Under the pieces are notes generated by a model, which was not told where the DNA came from, did no database searches, and saw only the letters and a list, made by a program, of their open reading frames with translations. This document shows positions 22,586 through 31,058 of a stretch of 64,000 nt of DNA, in pieces. Each line of letters starts with the position of its first letter. Positions within the stretch are counted from its first letter, which is position 1. A program made the position numbers and the translations under genes. The stretch comes from Collinsella aerofaciens (GTDB lineage Bacteria > Actinomycetota > Coriobacteriia > Coriobacteriales > Coriobacteriaceae), in assembly GCF_005844325.1 (NCBI RefSeq), contig NZ_SPFY01000006.1, positions 1 to 64,000 on the forward strand. Reading direction: 5' to 3'.

Positions 22586-25411
22586 ATGGGAGGAAACGTG
22601 GCTGAGAACCTAAGCAACCAGTCTGTACCCGAAGCCGCGGCGCGCGTCGCTGCCGTGGTCAACCGCCTCGTTAACCGAATCGGCTCGAATGCCGAGTCCA
22701 GGGAGCGTCTCGCCGAGATCGAGATCCCCGAGGAGCTGCGCGACAATCTGGCGCTGTTCTTGCGCCTGGAGCGCCGTGTGCTTAGCGAGTATGATCCCGA
22801 GATCGCGGACCTGTTCGACAAGATTTTGACAGCCGAGATTGTGGTCAATGCCGGCAACCCCGGTACCTGCGCTGCCGACGAAGCCGTCGACGAGCAGGGC
22901 GTGCCCACCGCCGACGAGCCCACTGCCGTGGCATTTCGTGAGGTCGTCGATTTGATCGACAGCCTGCCGCTCGATAAGCAGCAGGTCATCGTTCGCGCCT
23001 TTACGAGCTTTTTCCATCTGGCAAACCTGTCGGAGGAGAACTACCGTGTGGCGCAGCTGCGCGAGCGCGAGGCCGGTGCGTCGACCGATACCGAGGTCGA
23101 TCCTGCCAACGAGCTTACCGTTGCCTATCACCAGCTGGTGAATGAGCTGGGTGTCGAGGGTGCCAACGAGCTGCTCGACAAGCTCGAGTTCCACCCTGTC
23201 TTTACCGCACATCCCACCGAGGCCCGTCGTAAGGCCGTCGAGGGCAAGATCCGCCGTATCTCCAACCTGCTGGAGGAGCGTCCGCGTCTGGGCGGCTCCG
23301 ACCTGGTGGAGAACGAGCGCCATATGCTGCAGGAGATCGACGCCCTGGTGCGTACGAGCCCCATCGCGCTCAAGAAGCCCACGCCGGTCGAGGAAGCCGA
23401 TACCATCATCGACATCTTCGATAACACGCTGTTCGACGTTATCCCCGTTATCTATCGTCGTTTTGACGATTGGGTGCTGGGCGACAAGGCCGGTACTGTG
23501 CCGCCGCTGTGCCCGGCGTTCTTCCATCCCGGCAGCTGGATCGGTTCCGACCGCGACGGTAACCCCAACGTCACCGCCAAGGTGAGCCGTGAGGTCGCCG
23601 CCAAGTACTTTACGCACATGGTGCTCAAGCTCGAGGACAAGTGCCGCCACATCGGCCGCAACCTCACGCTCGAGGCCACCTACAGCAAGCCGTCGGCCGA
23701 GCTCATTAACCTGTGGAACCATCAGGTCGAGATGAGCCCTCGGTACACGGCCCGCGCCGAGCTGATCTCCGAGCACGAGCCGCATCGCGCCGTCATGCTC
23801 GTCATGGCCGACCGTCTGAACGCCACCGTGCGCCGTATCACCGACACCATGTACCACAGCGCCGACGAGTTCCTGGATGACCTGCGCGTCGTCCAGCGTT
23901 CGCTGGCCGCCTGCGGTGCCGTCCGTGCCGCCTACGGCCCGGTCCAGACCATCATCTGGCAAGTCGAGTCCTTCGGCTTCCATATGGTCGAGATGGAGTT
24001 CCGTCAGCACTCCGTGGTGCATGCCCGCGCCCTCAAGGATATCCACGAGAACGGTATCCATGGCGACCTGCAGCCCATGACGCGCGAAGTCATCGATACC
24101 TTCCGTGCTATCGGCTCCATCCAAAAGCGCTACGGCAAGAAGATGGCGCACCGCTACATCATCTCGTTTACCAAGAGCGCCCAGCATGTGGCCGACGTCT
24201 TTGAGCTTGCCCATCTGTCCTTTGCGCACGAGGAGGATGTCCCCGAGCTCGACGTGATTCCGCTGTTCGAGCAGCTCGAGGACCTCGAGGGCTGCGTCGA
24301 CGTGCTCGACCAGATGCTTACGCTCCCCGTGGTGCAGAAGCGCCTTGCCCAGACCAACCGCCGCATGGAGGTCATGCTGGGCTATTCCGACTCCTCCAAG
24401 GATGCCGGTCCTACCACGGCCATGCTCGCGCTGCACTCCGCGCAGGAGCGCATTGCCAAGTGGGCCGAGAAGAACGATATCGACTTGGTGCTCATGCACG
24501 GTCGCGGCGGTGCCGTGGGCCGTGGCGGCGGCCCGGCCAACAAGGCCGTGCTGGCTCAGCCCAAGGGTTCGGTCAACTGCTTCTTTAAGCTCACCGAGCA
24601 GGGCGAGGTCATCTTTGCCCGTTACGGCAACCGCACGCTGGCTCAGCGCCATGTTGAGTCCGTTGCCGCCGCAACGCTTTTGCAGTCGGCCCCGAGTGTC
24701 GAGAAGACCAACACCGAGACCACGCAGAAGTTCTGGGATATGGCCGAGAAGCTCAACGCCGCAAGCCACGAGCGCTATCTGGACCTGCTGAACACCGAGG
24801 ACTTTACACCGTGGTTCTCGACCGTGACGCCGCTGACCGAGGTCGGTCTGCTGCCGATCGGCTCGCGTCCCGCCAAGCGCGGCTTGGGTGCAAAGTCGCT
24901 CGACGACCTGCGTACCATTCCGTGGATCTTCAGCTGGAGCCAGGCGCGCATCAATCTGGCTGCTTGGTACGGCCTGGGTACCGCCTGCGAGCAGTTTGGC
25001 GATCTGGACCAGCTTAAGGCTGCCTACCAGGAGTGGCCGTTCTTCCGCACCTTTATCGACAACATCGAGATGTCGATCGCCAAGACCGACCAGCGCATCG
25101 CCAAGATGTATCTGCACCTGGGCGATCGCCAGGATCTGTCCGAGAAGGTCTTCACCGAGATGCAGCTCACGCGTAAGTGGGTCCTTGCCATCGTCGGTGA
25201 CGAATGGCCGCTGCAGCGCCGCCGCGTGCTCGGCTGCGCCGTTCGCGTGCGTAACCCCTACGTCGACGCTCTGTCCATCGCCCAGGTCCGCGCCCTTCGC
25301 GAGGTGCGCATGAATCAGGACGAGATGGCCGAGGAGAAGAAGGCCGAGTACATGAGCCTGATTCTTTCGACTGTGACCGGCGTCTCGGCAGGTCTGCAGA
25401 ACACGGGGTAA
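22586..25411 (+). CDS. ppc: Phosphoenolpyruvate carboxylase
   Basis: 941-residue cytosolic enzyme making oxaloacetate from PEP and bicarbonate, the anaplerotic step into succinate and aspartate families. Catalytic His is in FHPVFTAHPTEARRK, and the glycine-rich active-site loop is HGRGGAVGRGGGP; the family's C-terminal end (SAGLQNTG) is intact. Length matches the usual 880-970. Start is either ATG 22586 (very close to its AGGAGG) or GTG 22598 (GGAGG 4 bases upstream); the difference is four residues. Confidence 0.96.
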   Translation: MGGNVAENLSNQSVPEAAARVAAVVNRLVNRIGSNAESRERLAEIEIPEELRDNLALFLRLERRVLSEYDPEIADLFDKILTAEIVVNAGNPGTCAADEAVDEQGVPTADEPTAVAFREVVDLIDSLPLDKQQVIVRAFTSFFHLANLSEENYRVAQLREREAGASTDTEVDPANELTVAYHQLVNELGVEGANELLDKLEFHPVFTAHPTEARRKAVEGKIRRISNLLEERPRLGGSDLVENERHMLQEIDALVRTSPIALKKPTPVEEADTIIDIFDNTLFDVIPVIYRRFDDWVLGDKAGTVPPLCPAFFHPGSWIGSDRDGNPNVTAKVSREVAAKYFTHMVLKLEDKCRHIGRNLTLEATYSKPSAELINLWNHQVEMSPRYTARAELISEHEPHRAVMLVMADRLNATVRRITDTMYHSADEFLDDLRVVQRSLAACGAVRAAYGPVQTIIWQVESFGFHMVEMEFRQHSVVHARALKDIHENGIHGDLQPMTREVIDTFRAIGSIQKRYGKKMAHRYIISFTKSAQHVADVFELAHLSFAHEEDVPELDVIPLFEQLEDLEGCVDVLDQMLTLPVVQKRLAQTNRRMEVMLGYSDSSKDAGPTTAMLALHSAQERIAKWAEKNDIDLVLMHGRGGAVGRGGGPANKAVLAQPKGSVNCFFKLTEQGEVIFARYGNRTLAQRHVESVAAATLLQSAPSVEKTNTETTQKFWDMAEKLNAASHERYLDLLNTEDFTPWFSTVTPLTEVGLLPIGSRPAKRGLGAKSLDDLRTIPWIFSWSQARINLAAWYGLGTACEQFGDLDQLKAAYQEWPFFRTFIDNIEMSIAKTDQRIAKMYLHLGDRQDLSEKVFTEMQLTRKWVLAIVGDEWPLQRRRVLGCAVRVRNPYVDALSIAQVRALREVRMNQDEMAEEKKAEYMSLILSTVTGVSAGLQNTG

Positions 25412-25435: not shown

Positions 25436-25562
25436 GGGGCCGCCGTTTGTTTTCTTTCCGGCGCGTCCTCGGACATGCAAGAAGCCCTCGCTGCGCACTT
25501 CGTGCGGCGAGGGCTTCTTGCGTCCTGCGGAATGCGCCGGAAAGAAAACAAACGGCGGCCCC
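25436..25562. repeat. Cruciform-type nested inverted repeat, copy 1
   Basis: Outer arms 25436-25464 and 25534-25562 are perfect 29-bp complements. An inner hairpin (25477-25521) has a 15-bp stem (GCAAGAAGCCCTCGC) topped by CGCAC-TTC-GTGCG. The two junction spacers, GTCCTCGGACAT (25465-25476) and GTCCTGCGGAAT (25522-25533), can each form a tiny hairpin, giving a four-way cloverleaf. Spacers and apex are identical in the copy at 28487-28609, while the arms differ. The minus-strand or plus-strand inner hairpin lacks a strong T-run. Confidence 0.9.
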
Positions 25563-25596
25563 TACGATGTCCGGTCTTCGGTGGATTACTTGCTGG

Positions 25597-25815
25597 GGAA
25601 ATAAAGGCGCGCTTCGCGCGTTTGGAAAGGGCTTCGTGCTGCGGAATGCATTCAGGGGGAAACCCATCGGGTTCCTTCGTCCTCGGTTTTCAGGGATTAA
25701 AGCTGATGAAAATAAAGTGCGCTTCGCGCCTAATGTGGAGTGCGGCGAGGGCTTCTTGCGTCCTGTGGAGTGTGCCTAAAAGTAAACCTATGGCGGGCCC
25801 TGCGATGTCCGACCT
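25597..25815. repeat. Degenerate tandem half-copies of the cruciform element
   Basis: Positions 25738-25815 repeat the right half of the element at 25501-25576 with scattered changes (for instance GTGCGGCGAGGGCTTCTTGC is shared exactly, then GTCCTGTGGAGTG replaces GTCCTGCGGAATG). Positions 25597-25680 hold another decayed copy (GTGCTGCGGAATGC). AATAAAG followed by GCGCTTCGCGC occurs twice (25600 and 25711). Pairing is lost, so these are relics. No gene is seen. Confidence 0.65.
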
Positions 25816-26217
25816 TTGGCGAATCAGCCGCTGGGTGAGGGTGGTGCTTGGGGCGACGTGCAAAAAACGGAGTTTTCAGCAGCCAAAGATTGATGCATAA
25901 GGCCATAGCCGGCTTTCGCTACCTTTGTTGATGCTTTTGCACGACAATTGGGCCTTGGCGATGCCCGTATATGGCTGGTTTCTCGCCGCATGCTATCCAG
26001 ATGGGACGAGTCATGAGGACTATCTACCTTTTGAAAGACTTTTGACACCAAAATCTTATCCCGCGATGCTGAATACTCGCAAAAATGCACGCTCCGGAGG
26101 GTACTACCCTGTTACGGCTAGAAATCCATGCGCCATTTTATGCAATTAGTTGACGTATTTATACAAGATGACTTACGCGCGCATGCCATCGGGGTGAACG
26201 TTCGTCTCGGCATTGCG
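25816..26217. other. Intergenic stretch without recognisable gene
   Basis: Base composition is clearly AT-richer than the flanks, especially 25900-26160. Short open frames exist on both strands but lack ribosome sites and resemble nothing. A GCAAAAAACGGAGTTTTCAGC stretch near 25860 looks like a short repeat. The segment may be decayed mobile DNA; I cannot support a feature in it. Confidence 0.4.
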
Positions 26218-26249
26218 TTGACCATCCTGCCCATAGTGTCTTTTACAGG

Positions 26250-26287
26250 CGGCTGCGGTTCCGTTTGGGATCGCGGCCGTTTTGTTG
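26250..26287 (+). terminator. Terminator-like hairpin in the larA leader
   Basis: CGGCTGCG (26250-26257) pairs with CGCGGCCG (26272-26279), extended inward by five more pairs around loop GTTT, then TTTTGTTG. TTGACC at 26218-26223 with a weak -10 17-18 bases on could be the promoter, leaving this hairpin between promoter and gene (attenuator layout). Confidence 0.5.
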
Positions 26288-26405
26288 TGGGTCAAATATG
26301 AACGTTGTGTTAATGACTCGGTGGACGGTGGTGTTTTTCGGTGAGCGGCGTATCCTTCCAACGGTTTATCTAGTGTGTCAGTTGAAAGGAAGAGGGCGCT
26401 CGTCA

Positions 26406-27683
26406 TTGTTTGAATGTGAACTACCGTTTGACCACAAGACGTTGCATCTAGAGCTCGAGGATAAGAACTTCGTGGGTGTGATGGAAGGTCATCAAAACGA
26501 GTTTAAGACTACAAAATCGCAGGAAGAGCTGGTAGAAGAGTCGCTTGCCAACCCTTACGGCTCACCTTCGCTCGAGGAGCTTTGTGCTGGCAAGAAGGAT
26601 ATTGTCATTATTAGCTCCGATCATACGCGTCCCGTCCCCTCGCGTGTGACGATGCCTATTCTGCTGCATCACATCCATTCCGCTGCGCCCGAGGCTCGCG
26701 TGCGCATTCTGGTTGCTACGGGTATGCACCGTCCGTCGACGCACGAGGAGCTCGTCAACAAGTACGGCGAGGAGATCGTTGCCAACGAGGAAATCGTTAT
26801 GCACGTCGCGACTGACGACAGCATGATGAAAAAGATCGGCACCCTGCCTTCTGGCGGCGAGTGCATCATCAACAAGATTGCGGCCGATTGCGATCTGCTG
26901 CTTGCCGAGGGCTTTATTGAGCCGCACTTCTTTGCTGGCTTCTCTGGCAGCCGCAAGTCCGTGCTGCCCGGCATTGCCAGCTATAAGACCATCATGTACA
27001 ACCATAACGGTCAGTTTGTGAACGATTCCCATTCGCGTGCCGGCAACCTGTGCCACAACCACGTGAGCGAGGACATGTTTGCCGCTGCCGAGATGGCTCA
27101 CCTTGCCTTTGTGCTTAACGTGGTGCTCAACGGCAAGCACGAGGTCATCGGCTCCTTTGCCGGCGATATCCACAAGGCGCACGAGGCTGGCTGCGAGTTC
27201 GTGAAGAGCCTTGCCGGCGTTGAGCCCGTTGAGTGCGAGATTGCCATCACCACCAACGGCGGCTACCCGCTCGACCAGAACATCTACCAGGCCGTGAAGG
27301 GCATGTGCTCTGCCGAGGCCACGCTTCCCGAGGGCGGCGTGATTATTGATGTCGCCGGTTGCGCCGACGGTCACGGTGGCGAAGGCTTCTATCACAACAT
27401 CGCCGACAACGATCCGGCGGAGTTTGAGCGCGCCTGCATCGACCGTCCTAAGGACGAGACCCTGCCCGACCAGTGGACGAGCCAGATTTTCGCCCGCATC
27501 CTGGCGCATCACCCTGTGATTATGGTCACCGACCTGTGCGATCACCAGATGCTCAAGGATATGCACATGACGCCGGTCAACACTATCGAGGAGGCGCTCA
27601 AGCTCGCCTTTGAGATGAAGGGTGCCGATGCCAAGGTTGCCGTCATTCCCGATGGCCTGGGCGTTGTCGTCGCGCAGCACTAG
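26406..27683 (+). CDS. larA: Nickel-pincer lactate racemase LarA
   Basis: 425-residue enzyme interconverting D- and L-lactate (or a related 2-hydroxy acid) with a nickel-pincer nucleotide covalently bound to Lys. Starting at TTG 26406, the residues align exactly with Lactiplantibacillus plantarum LarA numbering: His108 in ATGMHR, His174 and Lys184 in EPHFFAGFSGSRKS, His200 in MYNH. That supports this start, which also has GGAAGAGGG 9 bases upstream; in-frame codons upstream to 26265 add unrelated residues. It is 49 bases ahead of the MIP-channel gene. Cofactor genes larB and larC lie on the opposite strand at 29.3-31.0 kb; larE is not in the window. Related DUF2088 racemases act on other substrates. 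Confidence 0.92.
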   Translation: MFECELPFDHKTLHLELEDKNFVGVMEGHQNEFKTTKSQEELVEESLANPYGSPSLEELCAGKKDIVIISSDHTRPVPSRVTMPILLHHIHSAAPEARVRILVATGMHRPSTHEELVNKYGEEIVANEEIVMHVATDDSMMKKIGTLPSGGECIINKIAADCDLLLAEGFIEPHFFAGFSGSRKSVLPGIASYKTIMYNHNGQFVNDSHSRAGNLCHNHVSEDMFAAAEMAHLAFVLNVVLNGKHEVIGSFAGDIHKAHEAGCEFVKSLAGVEPVECEIAITTNGGYPLDQNIYQAVKGMCSAEATLPEGGVIIDVAGCADGHGGEGFYHNIADNDPAEFERACIDRPKDETLPDQWTSQIFARILAHHPVIMVTDLCDHQMLKDMHMTPVNTIEEALKLAFEMKGADAKVAVIPDGLGVVVAQH

Positions 27684-27732
27684 TGCACGGCCCAAACGAA
27701 TCGTTTATAACCGACAAGAAAGATAAGGTTTT

Positions 27733-28464
27733 ATGCTTACCAAACTCCTCTGCGAATTCGGCGCAACGGCCCTCATGATCATCTTTGGCGTGGGCGTACA
27801 CTGCGATACCGTGCTTAAGGGCACCAAGTATCAGGGCTCCGGCCACATGTTTGCCATCACCACCTGGTCTTTTGGCATCTCGGTCGCTCTGTTTATCTTT
27901 GGCGGCGCCGTGTGCATGAACCCCGCCATGGTGCTTGCCCAGTGCATCGTAGGCCTGGTGCCGTGGAGCAGCTGCATTCCCTTCATGATTGCCGATATGC
28001 TCGGCGGCTTTGCGGGCGCCGTGATTGCGTGGTTGATGTATGCCGATGAGTTCAAGGCTTCCGATGGCGTCGTCGACCCCATTGCCCAGCGCAACATCTT
28101 CTCGACCAACCCCACCACCGAGGGTACGAACTACGCCCGTAACTTCTTCTGCGAGGCTATCTGCACCTTTGTGTTCATCAGCGCCATCCTCGCTGCCGCT
28201 AGCCGCGCCGGCGAGAACGTTCTGATGCTCGCCATCTGCGTCGGCCTGATCGTTTGGGCCGTTGGCATGGGCATGGGCGGCATCACCGGCTTCGCCATGA
28301 ACCAGGCTCGCGACCTTGGTCCTCGCATGGCCTATCAGGTGCTGCCGATCAAGAACAAGGCTGACAACAACTGGAAGTACGGCCTGCTCGTTCCTGGCAT
28401 CGCTCCGTTTGTCGGTGCCGCTCTGGCTGCACTGTTTGTGCACGGTTTCTTGGGCATGTTCTAG
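27733..28464 (+). CDS. MIP-family channel, LarD-like (aquaglyceroporin)
   Basis: 243-residue inner-membrane channel with six helices. The first pore half-helix has CMNPAMV (NPA motif); the second has FAMNQARDLGPR, where the usual NPA is NQA. The ARDLGPR context is that of glycerol facilitators. In lactobacilli a MIP protein (LarD) of the lar operon passes lactic acid, and the position directly after larA suggests the same job here. It ends 23 bases before a cruciform repeat. Confidence 0.85.
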   Translation: MLTKLLCEFGATALMIIFGVGVHCDTVLKGTKYQGSGHMFAITTWSFGISVALFIFGGAVCMNPAMVLAQCIVGLVPWSSCIPFMIADMLGGFAGAVIAWLMYADEFKASDGVVDPIAQRNIFSTNPTTEGTNYARNFFCEAICTFVFISAILAAASRAGENVLMLAICVGLIVWAVGMGMGGITGFAMNQARDLGPRMAYQVLPIKNKADNNWKYGLLVPGIAPFVGAALAALFVHGFLGMF

Positions 28465-28486
28465 TCCAAGGCTACATAGTTGTCCG

Positions 28487-28609
28487 CTGTCCGCATGGGG
28501 TAACTTCCCAGCGCGTCCTCGGACATGAAAGAACCCCCGCTGCGCACTTCGTGCGGCGGGGGTTCTTTCGTCCTGCGGAATGCGCTGGGAAGTTACCCCA
28601 TGCGGACAG
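28487..28609. repeat. Cruciform-type nested inverted repeat, copy 2
   Basis: Outer arms 28487-28514 and 28582-28609 are perfect 28-bp complements. The inner hairpin (28527-28569) has a 14-bp stem GAAAGAACCCCCGC with the apex CGCAC-TTC-GTGCG. Junction spacers GTCCTCGGACAT and GTCCTGCGGAAT are identical to copy 1; most of the outer arm is not similar. Between 28610 and the next gene (28767) the sequence is GT-rich and I see nothing in it. Confidence 0.9.
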
Positions 28610-28766
28610 CTGCGGGATCTTAGTCGCGTTGGAACAAGCAACCCGACATATATATCTGAATTTGGATGGGAGGGGCTTGTTGCTGGTAGGGGCGTTGAAG
28701 TGCGAGTGACGCTTTGGGATGCGTGGCGGCCTGGGTTGGGGCGATGCTTTGGGATGAGGTTCTTAC

Positions 28767-29308: not shown

Positions 29309-30220
29309 TTATGCGTCCGCGTCAACGAGCAGGCAGCGGAGCGTACCGGAGCAACCCTCGTAGGGGCGCTTACCGGCGCCGTAGCCGACGGCCTCGATGC
29401 GGTAGCGGGCCGGCAGGTGCTCGGACGTGCGCAGCGCGGCGACGATGGCGGCGCCCGTGGGCGTCACGAGCTCGCCGGCGACCGGTGCAGGCGTGAGGGC
29501 GATATTGCCCGCCTGACACAGGTTGACGACAGCGGGGACGGGAATGGGCATGAGGCCGTGGGCGCAGCGGATGGTGCCGTGGCCCTCGGAGAGCGACTCG
29601 ACTACGATGTCCTCAATACCCAGGTCGTCGAGGCAGATGGCGACAGAGCAGACGTCGACGATGGAGTCGACGGCGCCCACCTCGTGGAACATGACGGTGT
29701 CGGGCGTTTTGCCGTGAGCCTTTGCCTCGGCAGCGGCGAGTGCGGAAAAAATGGCGAGGGCGCGACGCTTGGCGCCATCGCTTAGCTGTGAACCGTCGAT
29801 GATGGCGGTGACGTCCGCCAAAGAGCGGTGGTGATGGTGGTGGGCGTGATGATGGCCCTCGTGGCCATGGCCGTGGGCCTCATGCTCATGCGTGTGCTCG
29901 TGTTCGTGCTCGTCATGGTCATGATGATGGTGTTCGTGCTCATGTGCGTGCTCGGCAGCTGCTTCGTTGCCGTAGAGCCAGGCCATGTCGTGGTCGTGGT
30001 TCTCGAGCCCCTCTGCCAACTGAACGTCAAAGTCGCAGGCGTCGATGCCATGCTTGTTTACGCGCGTTACAGCGATCGAAAAGCCGTCGACCGGCAGCGT
30101 GGCGAGCTGTTCGCGCAGGTGCTCCTCGCTGGCGCCCAGGTCGAGCAGGGCCGCGACGGTCATATCGCCGCTGATGCCCGAAGTGCCGTCGATGATAAGC
30201 GTGTGCTGATGGTTGGACAT
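29309..30220 (-). CDS. larC: Nickel insertion protein LarC, N-terminal (LarC1) form only
   Basis: 303-residue protein of the LarC family, the CTP-dependent nickel insertase that completes the LarA cofactor. The family start (IIDGTSGISGDMTVAALLDLGA) and core (FHEVGAVDSIVDVC, TPTGAAIVAAL, GYGAGKRPYEG) are clear. Residues 75-131 are a histidine-rich stretch with about 26 His, a likely nickel reservoir. The protein stops after the GYGAG region, where other LarC proteins continue with a C-terminal domain (LarC2, starting near a TNIDDM motif) that binds CTP. In L. plantarum LarC2 is joined by frameshifting; here the next bases encode the TetR gene. AAGGAG precedes the start. Confidence 0.9.
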   Translation of the reverse strand: MSNHQHTLIIDGTSGISGDMTVAALLDLGASEEHLREQLATLPVDGFSIAVTRVNKHGIDACDFDVQLAEGLENHDHDMAWLYGNEAAAEHAHEHEHHHHDHDEHEHEHTHEHEAHGHGHEGHHHAHHHHHRSLADVTAIIDGSQLSDGAKRRALAIFSALAAAEAKAHGKTPDTVMFHEVGAVDSIVDVCSVAICLDDLGIEDIVVESLSEGHGTIRCAHGLMPIPVPAVVNLCQAGNIALTPAPVAGELVTPTGAAIVAALRTSEHLPARYRIEAVGYGAGKRPYEGCSGTLRCLLVDADA

Positions 30221-30230
30221 GGAATGCTCC

Positions 30231-31013
30231 TTAACGGGCGCAGGATGTGCCGGCGCTCAGATGATTGATAAGACTTGCCTGGTAGGCGGCACCAAAGCCG
30301 TTATCGATATTGACGACCGATACGCCGCTGGCGCAGGAGTTGAGCATGGCGAGCAGCGCGGCTACGCCTCCAAAATTTGCGCCGTAGCCCACGCTGGTGG
30401 GAACGGCGATGACCGGACAGCTCACCAGACCGCCGATAACGCTCGCCAGGGCGCCCTCCATGCCGGCGATGGCGATGACCACCTGCGCCTGGGCAAGTTC
30501 CTCGGCATGCGCGAGCAGGCGGTGCAGGCCTGCGACACCTACGTCGTAGAGGCGGTCGACCTCGTTGCCATAGAATTCGGCCGTCAACGCGGCTTCCTCG
30601 GCGACGGGCAGGTCGCTCGTACCGGCGCAGGCGACAACGATGCGTCCGTTGCCGGTAGGGGAGGGCTTGCCGCCCACGAGGGCGAGCTGTGCGTCTGGGA
30701 CATATCCCAGGTCGATGCCGTTGCCGAGGAGCTTCGAGGCGCGGGCTGCCTTTTCGGCGTCCAGGCGCGTGACCAGGATGCGCACCTGGCCGGCATTGAG
30801 TAATGCTTTGATAATGGCGGCAATCTGCTCGGCGGTTTTACCGGCGCCGTAGACAACCTCGCCGGCTCCCTGGCGCACCCCGCGCGAAAGATCGAGCTGC
30901 GCAAAACCCAGATCGGCGGTTGGCGCCGTCTGGAGGCGCGTGAGGGCGACTGCCGGGGTGACTACTCCGTCGGCAACATCGCTCAGCAATTGCTCAAGAT
31001 CTCGCTTATCCAT
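30231..31013 (-). CDS. larB: LarB, pyridinium-3,5-biscarboxylate mononucleotide synthase
   Basis: 260-residue cytosolic enzyme that carboxylates and hydrolyses nicotinic acid adenine dinucleotide in the first step of the LarA cofactor pathway. It is related to PurE; the C-terminal half shows VVIAIAGMEGALASVIGGLVSCPVIAVPTSVGYG and the LLAMLNSCASGVSVVNIDNGFGAA ending. The ATG at 31013 has GAAGGGAA 6 bases upstream. It heads the operon larB-larC-tetR, with 10- and 2-base gaps. Confidence 0.93.
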   Translation of the reverse strand: MDKRDLEQLLSDVADGVVTPAVALTRLQTAPTADLGFAQLDLSRGVRQGAGEVVYGAGKTAEQIAAIIKALLNAGQVRILVTRLDAEKAARASKLLGNGIDLGYVPDAQLALVGGKPSPTGNGRIVVACAGTSDLPVAEEAALTAEFYGNEVDRLYDVGVAGLHRLLAHAEELAQAQVVIAIAGMEGALASVIGGLVSCPVIAVPTSVGYGANFGGVAALLAMLNSCASGVSVVNIDNGFGAAYQASLINHLSAGTSCAR

Positions 31014-31058
31014 ATATGTTCCCTTCGACGGCGCAAAGTCTAGCACTCAAAGGGTATG

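Follow-up and report, generated by a model that had tools for sequence, protein, structure and literature searches.

The first 64,000 nucleotides of contig NZ_SPFY01000006.1 of Collinsella aerofaciens (assembly GCF_005844325.1; this whole stretch is referred to as the window) contain two long hairpin elements, one behind ppc and the other behind larD, whose relatives form a Coriobacteriia family that is common in its clade. The two arms of the outer stem of these elements evolve in a mirrored manner at fixed sites behind genes, whereas the joint between outer stem and inner hairpin is conserved. With moderate confidence we read the family as REP-like hairpins occupying the place of terminators, the arms of which would be mirrored mainly by template-switch copying while selection holds the joint. 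A first-pass annotation, made from the letters alone, had presented the pair as cruciforms; the element is more interesting for its mode of evolution than for that picture.

Architecture of the elements

Both elements carry the junctions GTCCTCGGACAT (left) and GTCCTGCGGAAT (right) and the CGCAC-TTC-GTGCG apex in the window sequence, as the first-pass annotation had described. Folded as DNA, they are far more stable than their shuffled counterparts, with z-scores of -14.55 for element 1 and -13.73 for element 2, and 0 of 200 shuffles folding equally well. The perfect pairing claimed for the outer arms was borne out, but not the lengths of 29 and 28 bp, since both are 29-mers and element 2 had been delimited one base short at each end. 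The arms do differ over most of their length, as had been noted, yet a weak family consensus, about GGGTTACYTYCC, lies beside the junction. Outer stem and inner hairpin together comprise about 49 pairs, the inner stem about 20.

The junctions had been taken for open 12-nt spacers. In the DNA fold, however, 8 of the 12 nt on each side are paired across (TCC with GGA, C with G and GGAC with GTCC), leaving unpaired the bases G, T and AT on the left and T, C and AT on the right. Each element is thus one long bulged hairpin and not a cruciform with single-stranded spacers. Across the family the conserved core of the joint reads GTCCTCG on the left and CTGCGGA on the right. The window elements are followed on their 3' side by TACGATGTCC and TGCGGGATCT, with no U tract.

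Mirrored evolution of the arms

A total of 167 copies from 24 genomes was gathered and fell into 18 flank groups, two of which are apparently splits of one site, so that about 16 sites are represented. All 29 arm positions pair in 77 of the 167 copies and 28 in another 46, and in 115 no further pair is formed beyond the 29. Four copies, matching at fewer than 25 of the 29 arm positions, did not enter the mismatch and tree counts, and the outermost arm position, which held 50 mismatches, was excluded from the mismatch counts. Genomes are denoted below by G numbers and individual stretches by L numbers.

Minimum spanning trees of the arm haplotypes within sites contained 85 edges, along which 110 changes were counted in left arms and 130 in right arms. 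At 68 positions both arms had changed with Watson-Crick pairing kept, as compared with 3.39 expected for arms changing independently. These mirrored changes consist of 44 transitions and 24 transversions, and swaps without a wobble intermediate are well represented (11 between C:G and G:C, 6 between A:T and T:A). An indel is mirrored as well: at the groEL site all 14 clade copies have a G run and a C run of matching size, either 5/5 or 4/4, the groEL copy of G028, having other arms, not being counted. The comparison of arms at orthologous sites, proposed in the first-pass annotation, revealed mirrored change, and the idea put forward there, that one arm is copied onto the other, agrees well with it.

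The mismatch events in the arms comprise 34 of G·T type, 27 of A·C type and 18 others. An ordinary terminator located before larA in the same species served as control. Its stretch was obtained at 21 of 27 loci, 17 of which fit the pattern (13 haplotypes); those not fitting were G012, with a differing stem, and G003, G030 and G034, with two G·T in theirs. The terminator showed 27 G·T cells (13 of them in one invariant column), a single A·C cell, and 0 two-sided changes over the 13 haplotypes. These results favour a process at the DNA level over compensation at the RNA level, without proving it.

Position at gene ends and apparent exchange with terminators

At all 14 resolved sites (of 16) the element starts 9–35 nt after a stop codon and lies in the orientation of the gene that ends there. 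The preceding genes were assigned by family search, in which some queries were partial and some matches fell below the curated cut-off, as ppc, larD, branched-chain aminotransferase, pyruvate:ferredoxin oxidoreductase (PFOR), groEL, glycyl-radical protein, 6-phosphofructokinase, class II aldolase, pta, lactaldehyde reductase, OppF/DppF-type ATPase, homoserine kinase, P-type ATPase and asd; these genes are probably highly expressed. For the two sites of the window, the ppc product matches the NCBIfam PEP carboxylase model with 679.9 bits, below the curated cut-off of 815, and the larD product matches LarD with 418.6 bits, above the cut-off of 390. The elements had been described as a pair flanking larA/larD, but they do not form such a unit, since element 1 lies behind ppc and element 2 behind larD, and each is oriented like the gene it succeeds.

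The groEL and pta ends were further compared in 21 additional congeners. The place behind these genes is occupied by a long hairpin or by a U-tract hairpin, and the joint was scored behind groEL in 6 of the 21 and behind pta in 4. At least five T in seven bases were found at 0 of 6 groEL ends with joint and 8 of 15 without, and at 1 of 4 pta ends with joint and 11 of 17 without. The pta end of G041, scored as without joint, holds a decayed joint together with a T5 tract, and that of G029 a 40-position hairpin without joint, the outer 16 bases of which are common to G041. Taken together, the counts and these intermediates indicate that element and terminator seem to replace each other. The groEL-end arms of G028, G040 and G041 bear no relation to their counterparts in the C. 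aerofaciens clade.

Behind groEL in G015, G021, G029 and G039 (L460, L461, L465 and L469), and in the L462 region, long U-less hairpins without the GTCCTCG/CTGCGG joint were observed. They carry another recurring inner module, which is of GAACACC or CGACCG type and includes a small internal loop, and possibly constitute a sister family.

Extent of the family

A covariance model was built from nine copies of the window's own genome, in the alignment of which 97.9% of the cells pair (80.7% in shuffles) and both-sided changes occur in 27 of 48 pairs (12.7 in shuffles). The search that the first-pass annotation had suggested, carried out with this model, yielded further copies with conserved junctions, with matches in 29 of the 43 genomes of the genus Collinsella. 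When three genomes were searched individually, the model located 14 distinct places each in the window's genome and in G002, and 13 in G023; many of these places were hit on both strands. The figure of 29 is an undercount, because hairpins bearing the joint are also present in genomes without a model match, for instance in G035 and, behind pta, in G019, G036 and G042. A 12-mer match at C33:29818 was discarded as a chance match, the arms being absent there.

In other Collinsella the long arms can enclose a centre consisting of a short stem-loop flanked by CGTCCTCG and CTGCGGAATG, and 8 of 14 such short-centre stretches reach 18 of 29 paired arm positions. Among the matches listed by a wide pattern scan of genome contigs, 6 of 119 stretches show paired arms at no fewer than 18 of the 29 positions. 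Five of those six listed stretches belong to Coriobacteriia (Collinsella sp. An307, C. aerofaciens MCC370, C. tanakaei ET30, and metagenome-assembled genomes of Atopobiaceae and Coriobacteriaceae). The sixth comes from a metagenome-assembled genome of Myxococcales (SKON01000299.1) and appears to be a separate tandem repeat, a GC-rich palindrome, GTCCTCGCGGGCCAAGGCCCGCTGCGGAC, that resembles the joint and is probably unrelated; the same genome contributed the stretches L222 and L226 beside L292. None of 61 viral contigs passed the arm-pairing test.

Such repeats of Collinsella were not found described in the literature searched. The word Collinsella is absent from the main text of an inverted-repeat survey of 118,019 genomes (PMC13155455), and in the available text of a structured-RNA survey of human microbiomes (PMC8040213) one candidate from Collinsella is named, located upstream of a gene for a ribosomal protein.

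Inner modules, half-copies and possible site turnover

Three inner modules are letter-for-letter identical at different sites, one of them at three sites. Among 92 distinct left arms the only one present in two groups belongs to the site that was split in two, which also accounts for a fourth apparent case of inner-module sharing. Within sites, three inner classes each are found at the pta, oppF and glycyl-radical sites, and at pta they differ between closely related outer arms.

The ppc site holds an A-type element in 13 of 21 species and a C-type element in 8. Among the sequences listed, a full A type is followed by a C-type right half in G003, G007, G010 and G025, a full C type by an A-type right half in G004, G011, G017 and G023, and no half-copy is seen in G002, G008, G018, G030 and G033. 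In the window the full A type is followed by both right halves, the A-type remnant being a 79% repeat of 25502–25597 over 96 nt. Halves that start near the apex fit breakage and repair of the hairpin, or replacement of the site by a new copy. Small GCGCTTCGCGC hairpins are located just before the half-copies, at 25607–25620 and 25718–25729 of the window, and recur in the ppc-larA region of other species. Acquisition of the arms from the target on insertion was considered and found unsupported, as the arms show a family consensus and evolve at fixed sites; the only ppc site read without an element (G012) shows no single arm.

Proposed mechanism

From their place and orientation, the elements behind genes would probably end or protect the transcript. 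The mirroring would mainly reflect template switching of the quasipalindrome kind, by which one arm is copied onto the other as DNA is synthesised. Such copying would erase the bulged joint too, so selection must hold the joint, and it may do so via recognition by a protein or via the transcript. SbcCD cuts hairpins, and its loss would let such palindromes persist. A search for SbcD, of which SbcC was not part, found 0 of 43 genomes above the cut-off, and arm copying may thus be tolerated in a genus with no recognisable SbcD.

Several observations weigh against this proposal. Mirroring is incomplete, as 99 other changes along the tree edges affect one arm only or include a mismatch. Seven edges with at least three mirrored changes each hold 32 of the 68 (16 transitions and 16 transversions) and may represent replacement or recombination, the remaining edges having 28 mirrored transitions and 8 transversions. 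The wobble contrast involves one terminator only and gives p 0.007 when cells are counted and p 0.23 when distinct events are counted. No copy with a corrected joint was seen, with a finder that required the joint and would mostly miss such copies. Weak sub-cut-off matches to SbcD were present in 2 of the 43 genomes, and among the 14 SbcD controls 13 were matched and only 8 exceeded the cut-off.

Alternative explanations

The hairpins could instead be kept by selection on the RNA alone, being transcribed as terminators or 3' stabilisers the pairing of which is maintained by ordinary compensatory mutation. At each of the 14 resolved sites the element shares the gene's orientation and follows its stop codon closely, which, like the exchange with U-tract hairpins at groEL and pta, speaks for such selection; it keeps a minor share of likelihood. 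On the other hand, G·T mismatches are not preferred over A·C ones, mirrored transversions are many, the mirrored indel has to be accommodated, and single pairs in so long a stem should feel weak selection. When taken alone, selection on the folded form, to which the first-pass annotation had also appealed, accounts less well for the lack of a wobble preference, for transversions mirrored in both arms and for the mirrored indel. Selection for a DNA cruciform or a protein-bound hairpin, for instance to relieve supercoiling between highly transcribed genes, would agree with mirrored arms that are Watson-Crick only and with the steady arm of 29 bp, beyond which most copies form no further pair; a near-symmetric form, however, needs no fixed gene orientation, and yet one is shared by every resolved site. 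This explanation appears highly improbable.

Mobility has also to be considered, with the elements as REP-like DNA that a Y1 (HUH) transposase would spread by recognising the bulged joint in its single-stranded state. The same inner module at up to three sites would be in line with this scenario, as would the occurrence of Y1_Tnp, which 37 of 43 genomes have, among them every one of the 29 with a model match (Fisher p 0.0005, uncorrected for kinship), and the IS200-type gene about 200 bp from an element in G001; the accessible part of PMC8266576 shows the importance of an unpaired bulge to TnpA-REP of E. coli. That gene is nevertheless the only case among 25 distinct Y1 places examined, and the search for a RAYT-like transposase advised in the first-pass annotation gave no partner, as 0 of 15 stretches round Y1 genes, mostly of RAYT size, hold an element. 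Moreover, those Y1 genes that were read are flanked by repeats of other kinds, a hairpin with the joint lies behind pta in G042, a genome lacking Y1_Tnp, and the mirrored changes at fixed sites are left unexplained. Spread by Y1 thus appears quite improbable, and its link to the elements is a lead only. A composite proposal, which we judge unlikely, is that of self-renewing palindromes: in a genus lacking SbcD, gene-end hairpins would be continually re-mirrored by DNA copying, and a dedicated protein acting on single-stranded DNA, perhaps a domesticated Y1, would read the bulge and move inner hairpins between terminator loops; the outer arm would then in part be the terminator stem of the gene itself, and the inner hairpin a mobile cassette.

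Some further observations concern the surroundings of Y1 genes. In the IS200 region of G001 (G001:C1, L433) the element spans 2118–2244 and the open reading frame of the IS200-type transposase 1423–1923. The two convergent elements of this region are about 8–9 kb apart in G001 and about 300 bp in G002 and G023, so DNA seems to have been inserted between them in G001. Y1 transposase genes of about 265–340 aa are found at L440, L447, L448, L451 and L454; several of them, such as those at L440, L451 and L454, are flanked by repeats of their own that are unlike the elements. In L440, for instance, TTTGGGACGGGGCTATTTTAGCTACC occurs with its complement behind the gene. The reading frames on which these flanks were based were wrong at several loci, so the question of a Y1 link is judged on the 15 stretches given above.

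Implications

Template-switch copying balanced by selection on the joint remains the account that we prefer. The sites, about 16 in more than 20 related species, are a natural record of two DNA arms evolving as one, in which the natural strength of quasipalindrome correction would become measurable, with an ordinary terminator of the same intergenic region as control. The family also carries a warning, because strong covariation in long stems, taken by structured-RNA searches as proof of RNA function, may stem from DNA copying. If the hairpins end transcripts, they would represent a long, U-less class of terminator in a common gut genus.

Features in the window

The coordinates of the elements, the half-copies and the preceding genes are collected in Table 1. 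Downstream of element 2, larC and larB lie on the opposite strand (29309–31046, minus strand), so that the genes for lactate racemase form separate convergent blocks. An Rfam scan of the whole window at gathering scores left the elements unmatched and had aspS RNA as its sole match (RF02930; 31925–32008, plus strand; 77.6 bits against a gathering score of 42.5).

Table 1. Elements, remnants and preceding genes, in window coordinates.
Feature	Position	Strand	Remarks
ppc, gene before element 1	22586–25411	+	stop codon 24 nt before arm
Element 1, left outer arm	25436–25464	+	29 nt, perfect complement of 25534–25562
Element 1, joint, left side	25465–25476	+	bulged joint, GTCCTCGGACAT
Element 1, inner hairpin, A type, TTC apex	25477–25521	+	same module at three sites of the family
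Element 1, joint, right side	25522–25533	+	bulged joint, GTCCTGCGGAAT
Element 1, right outer arm	25534–25562	+	29 nt
Remnant, C-type right half	25628–25675	+	matches right half of the full C-type element that G023 has at this site (L089)
Remnant, A-type right half	25740–25800	+	same half behind full C type in G004, G011, G017 and G023
larD, gene before element 2	27733–28464	+	stop codon 21 nt before arm
Element 2, left outer arm	28486–28514	+	29 nt, perfect complement of 28582–28610
Element 2, joint, left side	28515–28526	+	bulged joint
Element 2, inner hairpin	28527–28569	+	site holds other inner modules in other species
Element 2, joint, right side	28570–28581	+	bulged joint
Element 2, right outer arm	28582–28610	+	29 nt

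Comparison with known systems

Intrinsic terminators, including the U-tract-poor ('I-shaped') ones, have a GC-rich hairpin. The elements resemble them in being stable GC-rich hairpins, placed 9–35 nt behind the stop codon in gene orientation at the 14 resolved sites, and depart from them in their length of about 49 pairs with a conserved joint and in the missing U tract behind the window elements.

The first-pass annotation was right that the GTAG signature of repetitive extragenic palindromes (REPs) is absent: the nine own copies aligned read GTCC and CTGCGG, with no GTAG tag at the base of the palindrome. It knew of no described family with this layout; the CGTC-tagged super-family (PMC3733652) is, from the text available, the closest named look-alike. 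As described in the accessible text of Di Nocera et al. 2013 (PMC3733652), CGTC-tagged REPs are short extragenic palindromes, mostly near gene 3' ends and with no associated transposase; their stem of 8–9 bp starts with AT pairs and is accompanied by a loop of 4–5 and a CCA-like tail, and some dimers lie inside longer palindromes. The Collinsella elements share the gene-end position. The tag of the super-family is an unpaired CGTC at one end of the palindrome; in both window elements CGTC occurs at the left joint, most of GTCC being paired in the fold. The stem, loop and tail features are not those seen here, where the joint is CGTCCTCG ... CTGCGGAATG and the inner stem has about 20 pairs. The long nested stems, the partly paired CGTCC, the right side CTGCGGAATG and the arms differing between sites set the elements further apart from what that text reports. 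With GTAG REPs and REPINs, as far as the accessible part of PMC8266576 describes them, they have in common an imperfect palindrome with a conserved bulge and an adjoining conserved motif; they differ in that no RAYT gene flanked by elements was found and in being far fewer and longer. The bulged palindrome also invites comparison with integron attC sites.

Quasipalindrome correction offers the closest parallel for the mode of change. In the accessible parts of the literature, template switching is reported to make the arms of inverted repeats identical (PMC8604942, PMC3820800), and in yeast arm-evening template switching was seen in highly transcribed DNA (PMC3820800). The mirrored changes of the arms have the corresponding form, being Watson-Crick and comprising transitions and transversions as well as an indel. 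Quasipalindrome correction is known from these sources as a mutation process, whereas here it would act as the long-term upkeep of a repeat family that keeps an uncorrected bulge.

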